Origin: an uncultured Chthonomonas sp.
Lineage (GTDB): Bacteria > Armatimonadota > Chthonomonadetes > Chthonomonadales > CAJBBX01
NCBI GenBank assembly: GCA_903885605.1
Contig: CAISJD010000160.1
Span: 1 to 38,525 of the forward strand
Direction of reading: 5' to 3'
DNA length: 38,525 nt
A program made the translations under genes and the position numbers. A model generated the notes under the pieces. That model saw only the letters and a program-made list of their open reading frames with translations, was not told the origin of the DNA and did not search any database. Below, one piece after another: positions 25,096 to 33,362 of the stretch. Each line of letters starts with the position of its first letter. Position 1 is the first letter of the stretch.

Positions 25096-25212
25096 GCCAA
25101 TCCCTTCCGCCACTCCATGGGCCGTACTGCAAGGCTCAGCGTCAGTGTACCTGCCTCGTGCGGCGCGGATTGCCGTCACGAGGCCGTGCCGGAAGCGCCC
25201 GGGCGTACCCAC

Positions 25213-25317: not shown

Positions 25318-25899
25318 ATGGCCGAGTACCGTGACGGACGCATCAAGAGGCTGGCGGCGGCGCTGAAGCGCGAGGGCGTGGCGCCCGACGTGTCGGAGCA
25401 GATCATGGACGGCGGCGAGGCCCTCACGTCGCATTCGGAGCCGGACGCCATGGCCGCCTGGTTCGCCGGGGCGATGGACCGGATGGACGCGCTCGTCGAG
25501 GCGGACCAGCGTGTGGCGGTCCGCGAGCGGTGCGCCTGCTGCCTGGGCGGCAAGCGGCTCCAGTTGAGCAAGGCGATCGGCCAGGCCGGGGGCACGGTCG
25601 AGGAGCGCGTGGCCGCCGCCGACGCCGAGCCGTTCGTCTTCGGCCATTCGGTGGCCATGCAGCCCGACGGCCGCATCCGCGTGGAGTTCCAGCCCAGCGA
25701 CTGGGAGAGCTTCCGGTGCTCCTGCATTCGCGCGCCCGGCGCCCGCATGTCGGCCACCTACTGCCAGTGCTGCCAGGGCCATGTGAAGCGCCACCTGCAG
25801 TTCGCGCTGGGCCGGCACCTTCGCGGCTGGGTCAGGTCGTCGGCGCTGAGCAGCGGAGGGAAATCGCCCTGCTCGTTCGACTTCGAGATCCTTGATTGA
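25318..25899 (+). CDS. Cysteine-rich protein of unknown function
   Basis: Protein of 193 residues. ATG 25318 follows CAAGGAGG at the right distance. The N-terminal 60 residues are helical (RDGRIKRLAAALKREGVAPD, AMAAWFAGAMDRMDALVEAD). Cysteine clusters then occur as CACC (about 72-75), FRCSCI (about 138-140) and YCQCCQGHVKRHLQFALG (about 153-170), which look like metal-binding sites. The layout resembles families annotated as DUF6144, but that match is from memory and not certain. No signal peptide or membrane helix is visible. It is divergent from the hybrid kinase gene and lies before the cluster of small genes. Confidence 0.75.
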   Translation: MAEYRDGRIKRLAAALKREGVAPDVSEQIMDGGEALTSHSEPDAMAAWFAGAMDRMDALVEADQRVAVRERCACCLGGKRLQLSKAIGQAGGTVEERVAAADAEPFVFGHSVAMQPDGRIRVEFQPSDWESFRCSCIRAPGARMSATYCQCCQGHVKRHLQFALGRHLRGWVRSSALSSGGKSPCSFDFEILD

Positions 25900-25966
25900 G
25901 GCTACCCATGGGCGCGTTCCTTCTGCCCGCCGTCCTGTCCGTTGCACTGGCCGACGGGCCGGGAGC

Positions 25967-26104
25967 GTGGCCCTGCTGAGGCGCGAGCTTGCAGAGGGCA
26001 TGTTCGACGATATGGGCCACAGTCGCTTGCACTGGGAGGACGATGAGTTCATTCCGGTCTACAATGAGATCGAAGCTGTGCTCAAGAGGCAAGGGTGGAT
26101 TTAG
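25967..26104 (+). CDS. Small acidic protein of unknown function (cluster gene 1)
   Basis: Candidate of 45 residues from GTG 25967, where GGGAG lies just upstream at a tight spacing; ATG 26000 would give 34 residues. The sequence EGMFDDMGHSRLHWEDDEFIPVYNEIEAVL has the look of a real acidic helical protein, and GC at the third position drops from here on. The frame is open further upstream into the previous gene, so the start is unsure and the gene could be a truncated remnant. The stop TAG shares its last base with the next GTG (TAGTG at 26102-26106). No family recognised. Confidence 0.45.
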   Translation: MALLRRELAEGMFDDMGHSRLHWEDDEFIPVYNEIEAVLKRQGWI

Positions 26105-26277
26105 TGCGGCAGTTGCTTGACGACGGGACAATCCGAGAACTCACAGACGCCGAGGCTGTCGATGGGCTTGTCGCGGCAGGCTACGACCGCATGTATGCCA
26201 GAGGGATGGTAGCCTGGAGCCACGGCAAGGTTATGCGCGATGTGGAGATGGATCCCGACCGTTCGGCGGGTGGGTGA
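26104..26277 (+). CDS. Small protein of unknown function (cluster gene 2)
   Basis: Candidate of 57 residues from GTG 26104. GTG 26095 is in frame but would overlap the previous gene. The sequence RQLLDDGTIRELTDAEAVDG and GYDRMYARGMVAWSHGK is amphipathic and mixed in charge, not low complexity. Overlaps at both ends (1 nt with the gene before, 4 nt with the gene after) suggest translational coupling in one messenger RNA. No domain, signal peptide or membrane segment seen. Confidence 0.42.
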   Translation: MRQLLDDGTIRELTDAEAVDGLVAAGYDRMYARGMVAWSHGKVMRDVEMDPDRSAGG

Positions 26278-26474
26278 AACCGCGCAGCCTGAAGGACGTC
26301 ACCAGAGCGTACAATGCACATCTGGAGATGCTAGCGTCGGAGCACGGAGACCTGATCGATTCGGCTGCTCCAGAAGACCGGCCTGTTGTTCGGGCCATGG
26401 TTGATGCGATGTCTTCCTTTGAGGCTTCAGTTCGAATGCTCAAGGAGCTTGATATCGACTTCGAGGTGACGTGA
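26274..26474 (+). CDS. Small helical protein of unknown function (cluster gene 3)
   Basis: Candidate of 66 residues from GTG 26274, which overlaps the preceding stop by four bases (GTGA). The sequence is almost wholly alpha-helical in character: LKDVTRAYNAHLEMLASEHG, then PVVRAMVDAMSSFEASVRML. It ends KELDIDFEVT. No known family recognised. The stop TGA shares one base with the ATG of the next gene (TGATG at 26472-26476). Confidence 0.5.
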   Translation: MKPRSLKDVTRAYNAHLEMLASEHGDLIDSAAPEDRPVVRAMVDAMSSFEASVRMLKELDIDFEVT

Positions 26475-26749
26475 TGGGTGTCGGCGATCAACCTTCTGGC
26501 TTGACGATGAGGTCCAAGCACATTGCCAGTGTCCAATGCTGCATGTGCGTGCATCTGCGCAGCATTGTCGACCGCCGTTGTGACGCGTACCCGGACGGAG
26601 TGCCGGACCCAATCTGGGACGATAAGACGATGCACACCGTGCCGATCGACGGCGACCATGGGATTCGGTACCAGGAGCGTGCGGTGCGCGCACGGCCCAT
26701 GACCGCCGAGGAGCAGATGTGGTACCAACGAGTGCTTCGATCGAGGTAG
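26474..26749 (+). CDS. Small Cys-containing protein (cluster gene 4)
   Basis: Protein of 91 residues from ATG 26474, with GAGG seven bases upstream inside the preceding gene. The central part, CCMCVHLRSIVDRRCDAYPD followed by GVPDPIWD and IDGDHGIRYQ, has the shape of a widespread small family: C-x2-C-x-H/K, a third Cys before A-Y/F-P-x-G-I/V-P, then GD-x-GI. I know this pattern only from unannotated proteins. A metal-binding role for the cysteines is likely by sight. It has the best evidence of the four cluster genes for being real. Confidence 0.68.
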   Translation: MGVGDQPSGLTMRSKHIASVQCCMCVHLRSIVDRRCDAYPDGVPDPIWDDKTMHTVPIDGDHGIRYQERAVRARPMTAEEQMWYQRVLRSR

Positions 26750-26752
26750 AGC

Positions 26753-26781
26753 TTGACACGGCGCCGCCGACGGAGTAGTCT
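26753..26781 (+). promoter_or_regulatory. Sigma70-type promoter for a short non-coding transcript
   Basis: TTGACA (26753-26758), a perfect -35, is followed by a 17-bp spacer and TAGTCT (26776-26781), a weaker -10. It starts 4 bp after the stop of the last small gene. No protein gene follows on this strand before the window feature at 28926; a strong terminator ends about 110 nt downstream. Confidence 0.55.
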
Positions 26782-26787
26782 AACGGT

Positions 26788-26899
26788 GTAACGCGAACCG
26801 AATATCGGATACGCCTTCTTCGGGGCACATTCAACGCCCCACCACGGGCATGCTGCACGGCCTTCACCGGCTGCGCGCTGCTTGTGGTGGGGCGTTTTT
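26788..26899 (+). ncRNA. Candidate small regulatory RNA
   Basis: The segment is bounded by a promoter-like sequence (26753-26781) and a strong intrinsic terminator, and carries no open frame of note. Its 5' part can fold as GCG-AA-CCGA-ATA-TCGG-ATA-CGC (26793-26814). Its 3' part is a 13-bp perfect stem, 26833-26845 with 26884-26896, whose 38-nt loop can form an inner hairpin (GCACGGCC with GGCTGCGC, one mismatch), then a T-run. I do not recognise it as 6S RNA, tmRNA, SRP RNA, RNase P RNA or a known riboswitch. The next gene downstream is on the other strand, so a leader/attenuator role is unlikely. Confidence 0.5.
26833..26899 (+). terminator. Strong intrinsic terminator with structured loop
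   Basis: AACGCCCCACCAC (26833-26845) pairs without mismatch with GTGGTGGGGCGTT (26884-26896). Five T residues cover the end of the stem and the tail (26895-26899). It has the clearest T-tract in the window. On the minus strand the stem is not followed by a T-run, so the direction is plus. Confidence 0.8.
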
Positions 26900-26920
26900 G
26901 CGTTTGGGGACCCCGGACGA

Positions 26921-28798: not shown

Positions 28799-28846
28799 GT
28801 CGCACCCCTTCGTCCGGCGCCCGAACCGGGGCCCGGCACTGGCGGT

Positions 28847-28852
28847 GTTATA
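28847..28852 (-). promoter_or_regulatory. Possible -10 element of the GH10 gene
   Basis: TATAAC on the minus strand, 49 bp before the GTG start. It matches five of six consensus bases, but no good -35 is present at 16-18 bp, so support is modest. Confidence 0.35.
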
Positions 28853-28925
28853 CCTTCCTCGGTGCGGTATGGTATGGCTGCAACTGCCGAGGGGCCCCGC
28901 GTGGACCCCGGCGAGGAGACGCCCG

Positions 28926-31900
28926 TTGCCCAAGCTGCGCCCTGCCTGGATCTGGATGCCCGCGCTGGGGCTACTGCCCGCGCTCTGCGCCACGGGGCCC
29001 GCGCCCGCGGGGAACTCCCCTGCCCCGCTGCGGCTGGAGAAGGCCCGCATCACCGACGCGGCACGGCATACCTACGTCTGGCGGGAGACCTGCGCCAACA
29101 ACGGCGCGGGGCACCAGCTGGCGGCTGGCTACGAGTGGGAAGGCGACAACCGCGGCTTCCTGGCCTCCGGCGAGGGGATGGTGCGCGGCGAACGGCGCAA
29201 GGGGCTCTTCATGCTGGCCTTCCCCGACGGCAATGTGATGAGCGCCTCGTGGGACGTGGCCTGGCCCCGAGGCCGCACGTGGCGCCTTCGCTACGGGCTG
29301 ACCGACTCCGCCGCGGCGCAGACGCTGGACGGCATGAAGCTCACTGTGACGGCCACCGACGCCCAGGGCGCCGACCACGTGCTGGTGCAGCGGACGCTGG
29401 CGCCCCGCGATGTCGGCCTCTACGACGAGCGGTTCACCTTCGACTACGACGTGCGGCGGATCACGCTGACGCATGACAACCTGGGCCGCGAGTGCTGGGA
29501 CGTGGTCTGGCTCGAGATGGAGGGCCTCGCGCTGCCCGGTCCCGGAGCGGCGGCCGGGCCCACGGAAGCCGCGATGGAGGCGCTTTCGCGGGCCATCCAC
29601 GACCTGACGCGAACCTTCGGCTCCCGCTACCCCAACGGCGCGGCCCACAGGTCGCGGCTGGAGGCCCTGCGGCGACGGCTCACAGGCGGCGGCGAGGCGC
29701 CCGCAGGAGCCACTGAGGCCTTCGAGGCGCTGCGGCGCGAGGCCCTCATCGCCAACCCGCTGGTGAGCGGACGGCCGATCCTCTTCGTGGCGCGGCCGCA
29801 GTACCGTAGCCACTACCACGCCATCGACACCCTCTTCCATACCGGCGAGTTCAACCCCGACCGGGGCGTCATGCACAACACCGCCTTCCAGGGCGGCGGA
29901 GCGATCAAGGCGCTGGACCTGGCGCGCGGCGGGGCGGTTCGCACACTGATCAGCCTGCCCGACGGCATGGTGCGCGACCCGGAGGTGAGCTTCGACGGCA
30001 GGCGCGTCCTCTTCGCCCTGCGGCGCAGCGCCGACGAGGACTACCACCTCTGGGAGATGAACGCCGACGGCTCCGGCCGCAGGCAGCTCACCCGCGCCGA
30101 GGGCGTCTCCGACTTCGACCCCATTTACCTGCCCGACGGCGGCATCGCCTTCTCCTCCACGCGGGATCCCAAGTTCAACCAGTGCTCCCGCGACCACGCC
30201 GCCAACCTCTACCGGATGGAGGCCGACGGCGCCAATATCCAGCAGATCGAGCATAACAACCTCTTCCAGAACCAGGCGTCGCTGTTGCCGGACGGCCGCA
30301 TCCTCTACGCGCGCTGGGAGTACGTGGACCGCAACTTCGGCGACGCGCACGGGCTCTGGAGCATGAACCCGGACGGCACCAACCAGGCCATCTTCTGGGG
30401 CAACAACGCCTCGTCTCCCGCCGCGGCCTACACGCCGCGCATCGTGCCCGGCGGCGGCAAGGCGCTCTGCATCTTCGGGCCGCACCACGACCGCCTCTGG
30501 GGCGCGCTGGCGCTGGTGGACCCGGCGCTGGGCCTCAACGGGCGCAAGCCGGTCGTGCGCATCTGGCCCGCCGACGCCATGCGGCTAGTGCATGAGGGCC
30601 CGCCCTTCGACTGCGACGCCTTCGCCCAGCTCCGCCTGAAGTACGCGGACCCCTACCCGCTCAGCGCGAAGTACTTCCTCTGCTCGCGGATGACCGGACA
30701 GGGCGAGCAGACCGGCATCTACCTGCTGGACCTGTTCGGCAACGAGATCCTGCTGCATACCGAGGGCGCCGGCTGTTACGACCCCATGCCGCTGACCGCA
30801 CGCCCGCGGCCGCCGGTGATCCCGAGCAGGCGCGACACCACGGGCGGAACCGGCGCCTTCTACGTAGCCGACGTCTACCAGGGCACGCACATGGCCGGGG
30901 TGGCGCGGGGAGCGGTGAAGAGCCTGCGCGTGGTGGAGGCGCCGCCCAAGCGCTTCTGGTCGCCCGGCTCCTGGTTCGGGCAGGGATACACCGCGCCGGG
31001 CATGAACTGGCACTCGCTGGAGAGCAAGCGCATCCTCGGCAGCGTGCCGGTGGAGGCCGACGGCTCGGCCTACTTCAGCGTGCCCGCCGACACGCTGGTC
31101 TACTTCCAGCTGCTGGACGCGCAGGGGCGCATGGTGCAGTCCATGCGGAGCGCCGCCATGGTCCACTCCGGCGAGAGGGCGGGCTGCGTGGGGTGCCACG
31201 AGGAGCGCCGCTCGGCCCCGCCCGCGGCTCGAGCCGCCTCGCTGGCCATGCGGCGGCCGCCCAGCCGCCTGGCCCCGTGGCGCGGCCCGGCACGGGAGTT
31301 CGGCTTCATGAGCGAGGTGCAGCCGGTCTTCGACCAGCACTGCGTCGGCTGCCACGACTACGGCAAACCCGCCGGCCGCAAGCTGAACCTGGCGGCGGAC
31401 CGCGACTTCGTCTTCAACACCGCCTACGTGGAGCTGTGGCGCAAGGGATACACCGGCGCGGTGGGCGCGGGCCCGGCGCAGATCCAGCCCGCCATGAGCT
31501 GGGGCTCCTACGCCAGCCCGCTGGTGAAGGCCGTCTCCGGCGACCACCACGGCCTGCGGCTCGACGCCGAGAGCCTCGACCGCATCCAGACCTGGGTGGA
31601 CCTCAACGCGCCCTACTACCCCACCTACGCCTGCGCCTACCCGGACCACTGGACCGGACGCTGCCCGCTGGACCCGGCACAGATGCGGCGGCTGGAGGAG
31701 CTGACCGGCGCCCCCATCGCCGCCAACGGCAGCTTCGACCGCTACCCCGGCCCGCTGGTGAGCTTCGAGCGGCCGGAGCTGAGCCCGCTGCTCGACCGCC
31801 TACCGGCCGACAGCCCGCAGCGCGGCGAGGCCCTGGGCATCATCCGCGCCGGGGCGGCCATGCTGGCCCAGCGGCCCCGAGCCGATATGCCGGGCTTCCA

Positions 31901-32009
31901 GCCGAACCCCACGGACGCCGCGCGGCTGGTCCGCGCCGAGGCGCGCCTGCAAACCGAGCTGCGCAACCGCGAGGCCATCCGGCTGGGACGGAAGGTGTAC
32001 GACCCGTAG
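28926..32009 (+). CDS. HzsA-related protein, TolB-like propeller with two c-type heme sites
   Basis: Secreted protein of 1,027 residues. TTG 28926 is preferred since GAGGAG lies seven bases upstream and a signal peptide follows (PAWIWMPALGLLPALCATG). The middle is a TolB/WD-like propeller (VRDPEVSFDGRRVLFALRRS, HLWEMNADGSGRRQLT, YLPDGGIAFSSTRDPKFNQC). Next comes the region shared with hydrazine synthase alpha subunits (GMNWHSLESKRILGSVPVEA, then DGSAYFSVPADTLVYFQLLD). Two heme-binding motifs follow, CVGCH at C754-H758 and CVGCH at C806-H810. Proteins annotated HzsA-related are common in Planctomycetota and similar phyla without anammox. No hydrazine synthase beta/gamma gene is nearby, so hydrazine synthesis is not implied; periplasmic redox chemistry is likely. 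The stop is 3 bp from the convergent sulfatase stop. Confidence 0.8.
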   Translation: MPKLRPAWIWMPALGLLPALCATGPAPAGNSPAPLRLEKARITDAARHTYVWRETCANNGAGHQLAAGYEWEGDNRGFLASGEGMVRGERRKGLFMLAFPDGNVMSASWDVAWPRGRTWRLRYGLTDSAAAQTLDGMKLTVTATDAQGADHVLVQRTLAPRDVGLYDERFTFDYDVRRITLTHDNLGRECWDVVWLEMEGLALPGPGAAAGPTEAAMEALSRAIHDLTRTFGSRYPNGAAHRSRLEALRRRLTGGGEAPAGATEAFEALRREALIANPLVSGRPILFVARPQYRSHYHAIDTLFHTGEFNPDRGVMHNTAFQGGGAIKALDLARGGAVRTLISLPDGMVRDPEVSFDGRRVLFALRRSADEDYHLWEMNADGSGRRQLTRAEGVSDFDPIYLPDGGIAFSSTRDPKFNQCSRDHAANLYRMEADGANIQQIEHNNLFQNQASLLPDGRILYARWEYVDRNFGDAHGLWSMNPDGTNQAIFWGNNASSPAAAYTPRIVPGGGKALCIFGPHHDRLWGALALVDPALGLNGRKPVVRIWPADAMRLVHEGPPFDCDAFAQLRLKYADPYPLSAKYFLCSRMTGQGEQTGIYLLDLFGNEILLHTEGAGCYDPMPLTARPRPPVIPSRRDTTGGTGAFYVADVYQGTHMAGVARGAVKSLRVVEAPPKRFWSPGSWFGQGYTAPGMNWHSLESKRILGSVPVEADGSAYFSVPADTLVYFQLLDAQGRMVQSMRSAAMVHSGERAGCVGCHEERRSAPPAARAASLAMRRPPSRLAPWRGPAREFGFMSEVQPVFDQHCVGCHDYGKPAGRKLNLAADRDFVFNTAYVELWRKGYTGAVGAGPAQIQPAMSWGSYASPLVKAVSGDHHGLRLDAESLDRIQTWVDLNAPYYPTYACAYPDHWTGRCPLDPAQMRRLEELTGAPIAANGSFDRYPGPLVSFERPELSPLLDRLPADSPQRGEALGIIRAGAAMLAQRPRADMPGFQPNPTDAARLVRAEARLQTELRNREAIRLGRKVYDP

Positions 32010-32012
32010 GCC

Positions 32013-33362
32013 CTACGGGCTGTAGACCGGGTCGCCACGCTGGTCGGTGTGGTAGCCGACCTGGCGGATCAGGTCGGCTCCGCGCTCGAACCGGTCGCCT
32101 CGGGCCTCGAGCATGGCCCGCAGGCGGCGGTCCAGCCGGCTCCGCAGGTCCGAGGTCGAGGGCTCCGCCACCAGGTTCCGCATCTGGTAGGGGTCGGCCG
32201 CGTTGTCGAAGAGCATCCACGGCCCCTGGTGGTCGATGACGTAGGTGTGGCGGGCGGTCCGCAAGCCGCGCCAGTCGCGGCCGCCGTTGTAGTAGGCGTA
32301 CTGGTGGAAGCAGGCCGGCAGTTCGATGAGCGTGGCCTCGTCACCGTCGGGCGGGAGGTTGCGGCGGATCGCCTCGCTCAGGTCGCGCCCCTCCACGGTG
32401 GCAGGCACGGGCAGCCCGGCGAGGCCGATCAGCGTCGGCATAATGTCCGCCGAGGCGACCTGGTTCGTCACCGTGCGCGGCGCGCTCCCGAAGCCGGACG
32501 GCCAGCGCATGAGCATGGGCGTCATGATCGACTCCTCGAAGGGCCGCTGCTTGTTCCACTGCAGGTGCGAGCCGAGCATATCGCCATGGTCCGAGGTGAA
32601 GACCAGCAGCGTGTCGTCGGCCAGCCCCAGCGTCTCCAGCGCGTCGGCGAGGCGGCCGAAGCAGGCGTCCAGAGCCGAGCAGTGGGCGTAGTAGCCGGCG
32701 ATCTTGGCCCGTGTCTCCTCCTCGCGCTCGTCGGGCACGTTGGGGCGCAGGACGAGGCTTGCGGGGTCGTACATCCGCCGGTAGCGCTCCGGCGCGGTGC
32801 CGTAGGGGTCGTGCGGCGGGCCCCAGGAGAGCATCATCATGAAGGGGCCGCGGTCGCGGGCGGAGCGGAGGTAGCGGATGGCCTCCTCGGTCTGCGCCTC
32901 GGCGTCGTAGCCGGGCCAGCGGCGCGGGGCCGGGTCGTCGGCGTAGTAGCCCGAGGCGTTGTAGTCGTGGGTGCACTCCTGCGCGCGCCAGTGGCGGAAC
33001 CCCTTGCGACGCTCGGGCGGGATGTAGGAGGAGCGGCCGTGGCCGTCGATGTGCCACTTGCCGATGTAGGCCGTGTCGTAGCCCGCCTCGCCCAGCCACT
33101 GGGCCAGGTAGGCCGGCTCGCCGCGGACGGGCACATCGTTGACGAAGACGCCGTGGGTCAGCGGGTTCTGGCCGGTCATGAGCGTCGCCCGCCAGGGGCA
33201 GCAGACCGGGCAGGTGGAGATAGACTGGGTGAAGCGGAGCGACCGCGCCGCGAAGGCGTCCAGGTTGGGCGTTCGGACGTTGGGGTCGCCGGCGTAGCCC
33301 AGCGCCTGGGCGCGCCACTGGTCGCCGAAGACGAAGACGATGTTGGGGTGCGATGGCTTCAT
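32013..33362 (-). CDS. Cys-type sulfatase (alkaline-phosphatase superfamily)
   Basis: Protein of 449 residues from ATG 33362, with AAGGGAG just upstream. The N-terminal NIVFVFGDQWRAQALGYAG has the metal-binding Asp (D14). The active-site motif CxPxR is C54-C55-P56-W57-R58 in CPVCCPWRATLMTGQ, with C54 expected to become formylglycine; Trp replaces the usual Ser at the fourth place. GKWHIDGHG and FTSDHGDMLGSHLQWNK supply the remaining ligands. No signal peptide is visible, so either the enzyme is cytosolic or the start is elsewhere. It cleaves sulfate esters, probably from oligosaccharides, as it forms an operon with the glycosidase-like gene (17-bp gap). No convincing formylglycine-generating enzyme gene lies in the window. 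Confidence 0.92.
   Translation of the reverse strand: MKPSHPNIVFVFGDQWRAQALGYAGDPNVRTPNLDAFAARSLRFTQSISTCPVCCPWRATLMTGQNPLTHGVFVNDVPVRGEPAYLAQWLGEAGYDTAYIGKWHIDGHGRSSYIPPERRKGFRHWRAQECTHDYNASGYYADDPAPRRWPGYDAEAQTEEAIRYLRSARDRGPFMMMLSWGPPHDPYGTAPERYRRMYDPASLVLRPNVPDEREEETRAKIAGYYAHCSALDACFGRLADALETLGLADDTLLVFTSDHGDMLGSHLQWNKQRPFEESIMTPMLMRWPSGFGSAPRTVTNQVASADIMPTLIGLAGLPVPATVEGRDLSEAIRRNLPPDGDEATLIELPACFHQYAYYNGGRDWRGLRTARHTYVIDHQGPWMLFDNAADPYQMRNLVAEPSTSDLRSRLDRRLRAMLEARGDRFERGADLIRQVGYHTDQRGDPVYSP

Follow-up and report, generated by a model that had tools for sequence, protein, structure and literature searches.

We propose that the segment at positions 26753–26899 (forward strand) of a 38,525-nt stretch of DNA from an uncultured Chthonomonas sp. 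(analyzed whole, and hereafter called the window) is probably a copy of the kind of late leader found in temperate phages, in which transcription starts constitutively but terminates unless the polymerase has been modified. The element is of a known design and belongs to a new sequence family, and it stands solo in the window genome (G000).

Anatomy of the element

The −35 box TTGACA (26753–26758) and the −10 box TAGTCT (26776–26781) are separated by a 17-nt spacer, and the −10 box agrees with TATAAT at 3/6 positions (Table 1). The pattern TTGACA-N17-TAGNCT occurs once in the window, against an expectation of 0, and once in the 5.6-Mb genome. The terminator arms, AACGCCCCACCAC (26833–26845) and GTGGTGGGGCGTT (26884–26896), form 13 perfect pairs, the 38-nt loop prolongs the stem to give 27 pairs in a combined promoter and terminator scan, and TTTTT follows the stem and runs to 26899. 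The RNA spanning 26786–26902 has a minimum free energy of −63.6 versus a mean of −40.6 for shuffled sequences (0/200 shuffles), and the fold of the whole element compared with shuffles gives a z of −5.60. The perfect −35 box with its 17-bp spacing, the 5′ hairpin, the 13-bp terminator stem with a T-run and the foldable 38-nt loop had all been described in a first-pass annotation, and each of them is present.

Generic promoter and terminator scans of the window did not pick up the element, the former because its −10 box falls below 4/6 matches to TATAAT, and the latter because loops were limited to 3–8 nt; the combined scan finds it as the only promoter–terminator pair in the window. The first-pass annotation had further described about 110 nt lacking a reading frame, no downstream gene on the same strand and no match to a known RNA family, and called the element an orphan. 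These statements are borne out for the window copy: no reading frame is kept, because copies differ by an indel in the loop; no same-strand gene follows, the next gene being a convergent GH10 gene; and a search of Rfam gave no family at its gathering score, MIR949 being rejected as a chance score of 18.6 versus a gathering score of 100. Beside the GH10 gene lies a large protein (28800–32006, forward strand) with a hydrazine-synthase-alpha (HZS_alpha) middle domain (E 5.8e-33); it also matches cytochrome c, below threshold.

Table 1. Features of the element and of the genes preceding it in the window
Feature	Coordinates	Strand	Evidence
Chain of overlapping short ORFs (70, 60 and 66 aa) leading into the 92-aa ORF	25892..26474	+	Phage-like arrangement
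92-aa Cys-rich ORF, phrog_33375-like phage small protein	26471..26749	+	PHROGs E 2.6e-5
Promoter TTGACA-17-TAGTCT	26753..26781	+	Pattern unique in window and genome; 23/29 positions kept in G002 copy
Predicted RNA, ~110 nt	26788..26899	+	Start placed 7 nt past the −10 box; fold z −6.76; homologues
5′ hairpin CCGA-AUA-UCGG	26798..26808	+	4 pairs kept in 3/3 copies
Possible antiterminator hairpin GGGGC-9-GCCCC	26822..26840	+	3′ arm is also terminator 5′ arm; suggestive only
Terminator hairpin, 13-bp outer stem and folded 38-nt loop	26833..26896	+	26 pairs, 100% paired in 3 copies
T-run and conserved tail TTTTTGCGTT	26895..26904	+	GGGGCGTTTNTGCGTT counts across genomes

In the Armatimonadota copies, a 4–5-bp hairpin can also form where the last part of the leader pairs with the terminator's 5′ arm, and GGGGC/GCCCC in the window is replaced by GGAGC/GCUCC in G001 and in copy B of G002, a compensatory change. 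Because the per-copy p values are 0.07–0.33, not significant alone, we treat this hairpin as a lead only. Antiterminators of the LicT/SacY type are RNA structures stabilised by a protein, and they likewise involve a small hairpin that shares sequence with the terminator's 5′ arm; the hairpin described here is suggestive only.

Conservation of the element in related genomes

A blastn search of the element against 61 relatives returned two strong homologues, both from the same genus (G001 and G002) and both 75% identical to the window element, covering query positions 14–168, i.e. from TTGACA to the T-run; the contigs of the same-genus relative MAGs are JAPLCQ010000069.1 and CAJBBX010000172.1. 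The alignment shows that these copies retain promoter, hairpin and terminator alike. Aligning related genomes for compensatory changes in the stems, as the first-pass annotation had proposed, shows that every copy can form 30/30 standard pairs in the 5′ hairpin and terminator, where 2 changes are compensatory and 6 one-sided; for the 26 pairs of the terminator alone, 2 are changed on both sides and 5 on one. The covariation is modest, as there are three sequences, two of them near-identical, and 66/500 shuffles reach this level.

The flanks of the three copies share nothing, and comparison of the whole contigs reveals no other common gene. The G001 and G002 copies are identical at 153/156 positions while the neighboring histidine-kinase gene is 79.5% identical between the same genomes, and the element therefore appears to move as a module or to recombine on its own, as judged from these sequences. 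In a comparison made for an empty site, synteny between species stops at 25111.

With ten candidates scored per genome, a covariance model detects the element in 3/291 genomes of the phylum and no more. The motif GGGGCGTTTNTGCGTT occurs once each in G000 and G001 and twice in G002, with 2 further matches in the 61 genomes, neither of the element type, and BLAST of the element against phage and plasmid records gave no match. Several weaker candidates were set aside. Outside the L031/L061 copies, none of the matches to the GAAYNGAATATCGG pattern in genomes and viral contigs lies in a promoter–leader–terminator context, and those inspected resemble chance or coding matches; matches to the terminator-tail pattern in viral contigs are mostly unrelated phage terminators, one of which (L154) has a promoter–leader–terminator arrangement; the viral contig L275 carries GGGGGCACATTCAACGCCCCC in a simple hairpin judged to be a chance match; and the R1 match at L096:11582 (14 bits) was dismissed as noise.

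Phage context of the element

The 92-aa ORF stops 3 nt ahead of the −35 box in the window. One relative of this ORF lies in a viral contig, flanked by head-morphogenesis and capsid-like genes, and another, in G005, likewise adjoins an element: there, downstream of a Mu F-like phage gene, lies the phrog_33375 relative, whose stop codon overlaps a homologous element that has GGGCACNNTCNACGCCCC and the GGGGCGTTTTTGC tail in common with the window. For the three shorter ORFs upstream, a Pfam search gave no family above the curated cut-off, the 66-aa ORF has a weak PHROGs match, and no viral relatives were found; because database support is absent, we infer their phage origin from their arrangement only. 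Elsewhere, six phrog_33375-like matches within ~2 kb (G057:C81:893-2922) suggest a tandem array of this small phage gene.

The G002 copies lie on a prophage contig that encodes a terminase, a portal and a resolvase-type recombinase. Upstream of copy B (at 51901) are genes for a DNA methylase and a Mrr-type nuclease, and downstream of it is a predicted phage-type late-region gene; copy A (at 32743), which is divergent and a full-length but weak match to the model (21.5 bits), lies directly before the terminase and packaging genes. All three TTGACA-N17-TAGNCT sites in the 5.7-Mb G002 genome are on the prophage contig; the third of them is an early-type promoter adjoining a repressor-like gene. 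The early promoter of this prophage (L103, G002:C178:25056) is followed by a TGTGTC...GACACA inverted repeat, probably its operator, beside the repressor-like gene, and the portal has a C-terminal PBECR1 nuclease-like domain, a toxin-like fusion (L095:9520-11361). DNA methyltransferase genes occur close to the G001, G002 and G005 copies, and for G001 and G002 the setting is restriction-like; the part of the G001 contig examined holds no phage gene.

Scanning for a promoter, at most 150 nt, a strong hairpin and a T-run identified further units in three Armatimonadota genomes (G023, G026 and G027), each with a perfect TTGACA-17-TATAAT promoter, an 84–85-nt leader and a terminator of −29 to −32 kcal/mol, placed 17–21 nt before a terminase start codon. 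A second unit in G027, with two tandem terminators, precedes a holin gene. These leaders are analogous to those of the window group and are not alignable with them. No such unit was found in the scan near the terminase relatives of G013, G015, G016, G046 and G055. The scan yielded a single comparable match (leader of at most 130 nt, terminator of −22 kcal/mol or lower) in a control set of 590 kb from unrelated genomes, and once leaders of up to 230 nt were allowed it recovered pR′-tR′ just after gene Q of lambda as a positive control. A viral contig with an Acinetobacter-phage-like terminase (L131:3914) has a promoter, a 64-nt leader and a terminator ~2 kb before the terminase, which hints that the design is widespread.

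Comparison with known systems

In lambda, pR′-tR′ consists of a constitutive-type promoter, a short non-coding leader and a strong intrinsic terminator ahead of the late genes of a temperate phage. The order, position and spacing of the Armatimonadota units fit this plan, and by sequence the element has the sigma70-type promoter and terminated non-coding leader of the class; the G002, G023, G026 and G027 copies lie directly upstream of late phage genes, and the window copy does not. Unlike pR′-tR′, the Armatimonadota units precede a terminase or a holin gene and can occur twice per prophage, their leaders measure 69–110 nt rather than the 187 nt found for lambda in the scan, and their sequence is unrelated. 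No Q-like gene was found: among the genes upstream of the elements (the phrog_33375 relatives in the window and G005, and a 61-aa ORF in G002 with a sub-threshold zinc-ribbon likeness), none matches the Q family, and no antiterminator was identified. In Stx phages, the leader RNA of a lambda-type late promoter became the small RNA StxS (PMC7873438).

Alternative explanations

The first-pass annotation had proposed a candidate new small RNA, and this holds insofar as the element is a discrete, conserved and Rfam-negative unit. A dedicated host sRNA gene is the less likely reading, since homologous and architecturally identical units precede phage late genes in prophages of the same phylum and a phage-family gene ends immediately upstream. 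A host or domesticated gene for a trans-acting sRNA that base-pairs with mRNAs, apart from phage late control, would account for a self-contained promoter–RNA–terminator unit with no adjacent target, kept by G000 and G001 (same genus) away from any terminase; it is nevertheless unlikely, given that the unit is found in so few genomes of the phylum, one copy occupies the late region of a prophage, another, divergent copy precedes a terminase and the upstream gene is of phage type. It is more doubtful still that the orphan copies (G000, G001 and G005) are maintained for the decoy or regulatory function of constitutively made, phage-derived RNAs, which would titrate the antitermination factor of an incoming phage or act as sRNAs and so give the host immunity.

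A put-like RNA, in which hairpins of the leader make the polymerase ignore terminators without a protein, we consider improbable. The put RNA of phage HK022, a ~70-nt two-hairpin RNA of the early operons that suppresses downstream terminators, provides the precedent (PMC9378689) and by its description resembles the element in being a structured leader on nascent transcripts of a temperate phage, present in two copies per genome; the ~110-nt RNA likewise has two small hairpins before the terminator and can occur more than once per prophage. However, put prevents termination whereas the leader here ends in a terminator, which the polymerase would meet first, and the leaders differ between the two groups, unlike what a polymerase-docking RNA might show. 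Least probable of all is that the upstream phage ORF simply ends in its own terminator, with a promoter-like sequence lying in between by chance. A same-strand gene does precede the terminator, and the −10 box of the window copy is poor, but promoter, spacing, leader and terminator are kept as one block behind differing upstream genes, and the other prophages have a perfect TATAAT.

Proposed mechanism and implications

Based on the anatomy of the sequence, its homology and the prophage positions, we infer that a late leader is transcribed and that antitermination, with its factor, acts on it. Host RNA polymerase would start constitutively at TTGACA-17-TAGTCT, make a structured non-coding RNA of ~110 nt and stop at the strong intrinsic terminator. 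In an intact phage, the terminator would lie just before the start of the late operon, keeping the late genes off until antitermination, which may occur via a phage factor or through a rearrangement of the RNA in which the GGGGC/GCCCC hairpin competes with the terminator. The window copy would end a small phage remnant, and because no late genes lie behind it, only a short terminated RNA would be made. As no same-strand gene follows, we call this copy derived, or orphan, rather than a working late leader; a terminase related to that of the prophages is absent from G000 and G001, and the window copy therefore looks like the orphan of a lost phage.

On the evidence of these sequences, lambda-style terminated late leaders extend to prophages of the Armatimonadota, and the arrangement of a promoter, 60–130 nt, a strong terminator and a late gene provides a searchable signature. 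Late leaders can also persist on their own in bacterial chromosomes as apparently mobile units, and such solo copies could be misread as new host sRNAs.
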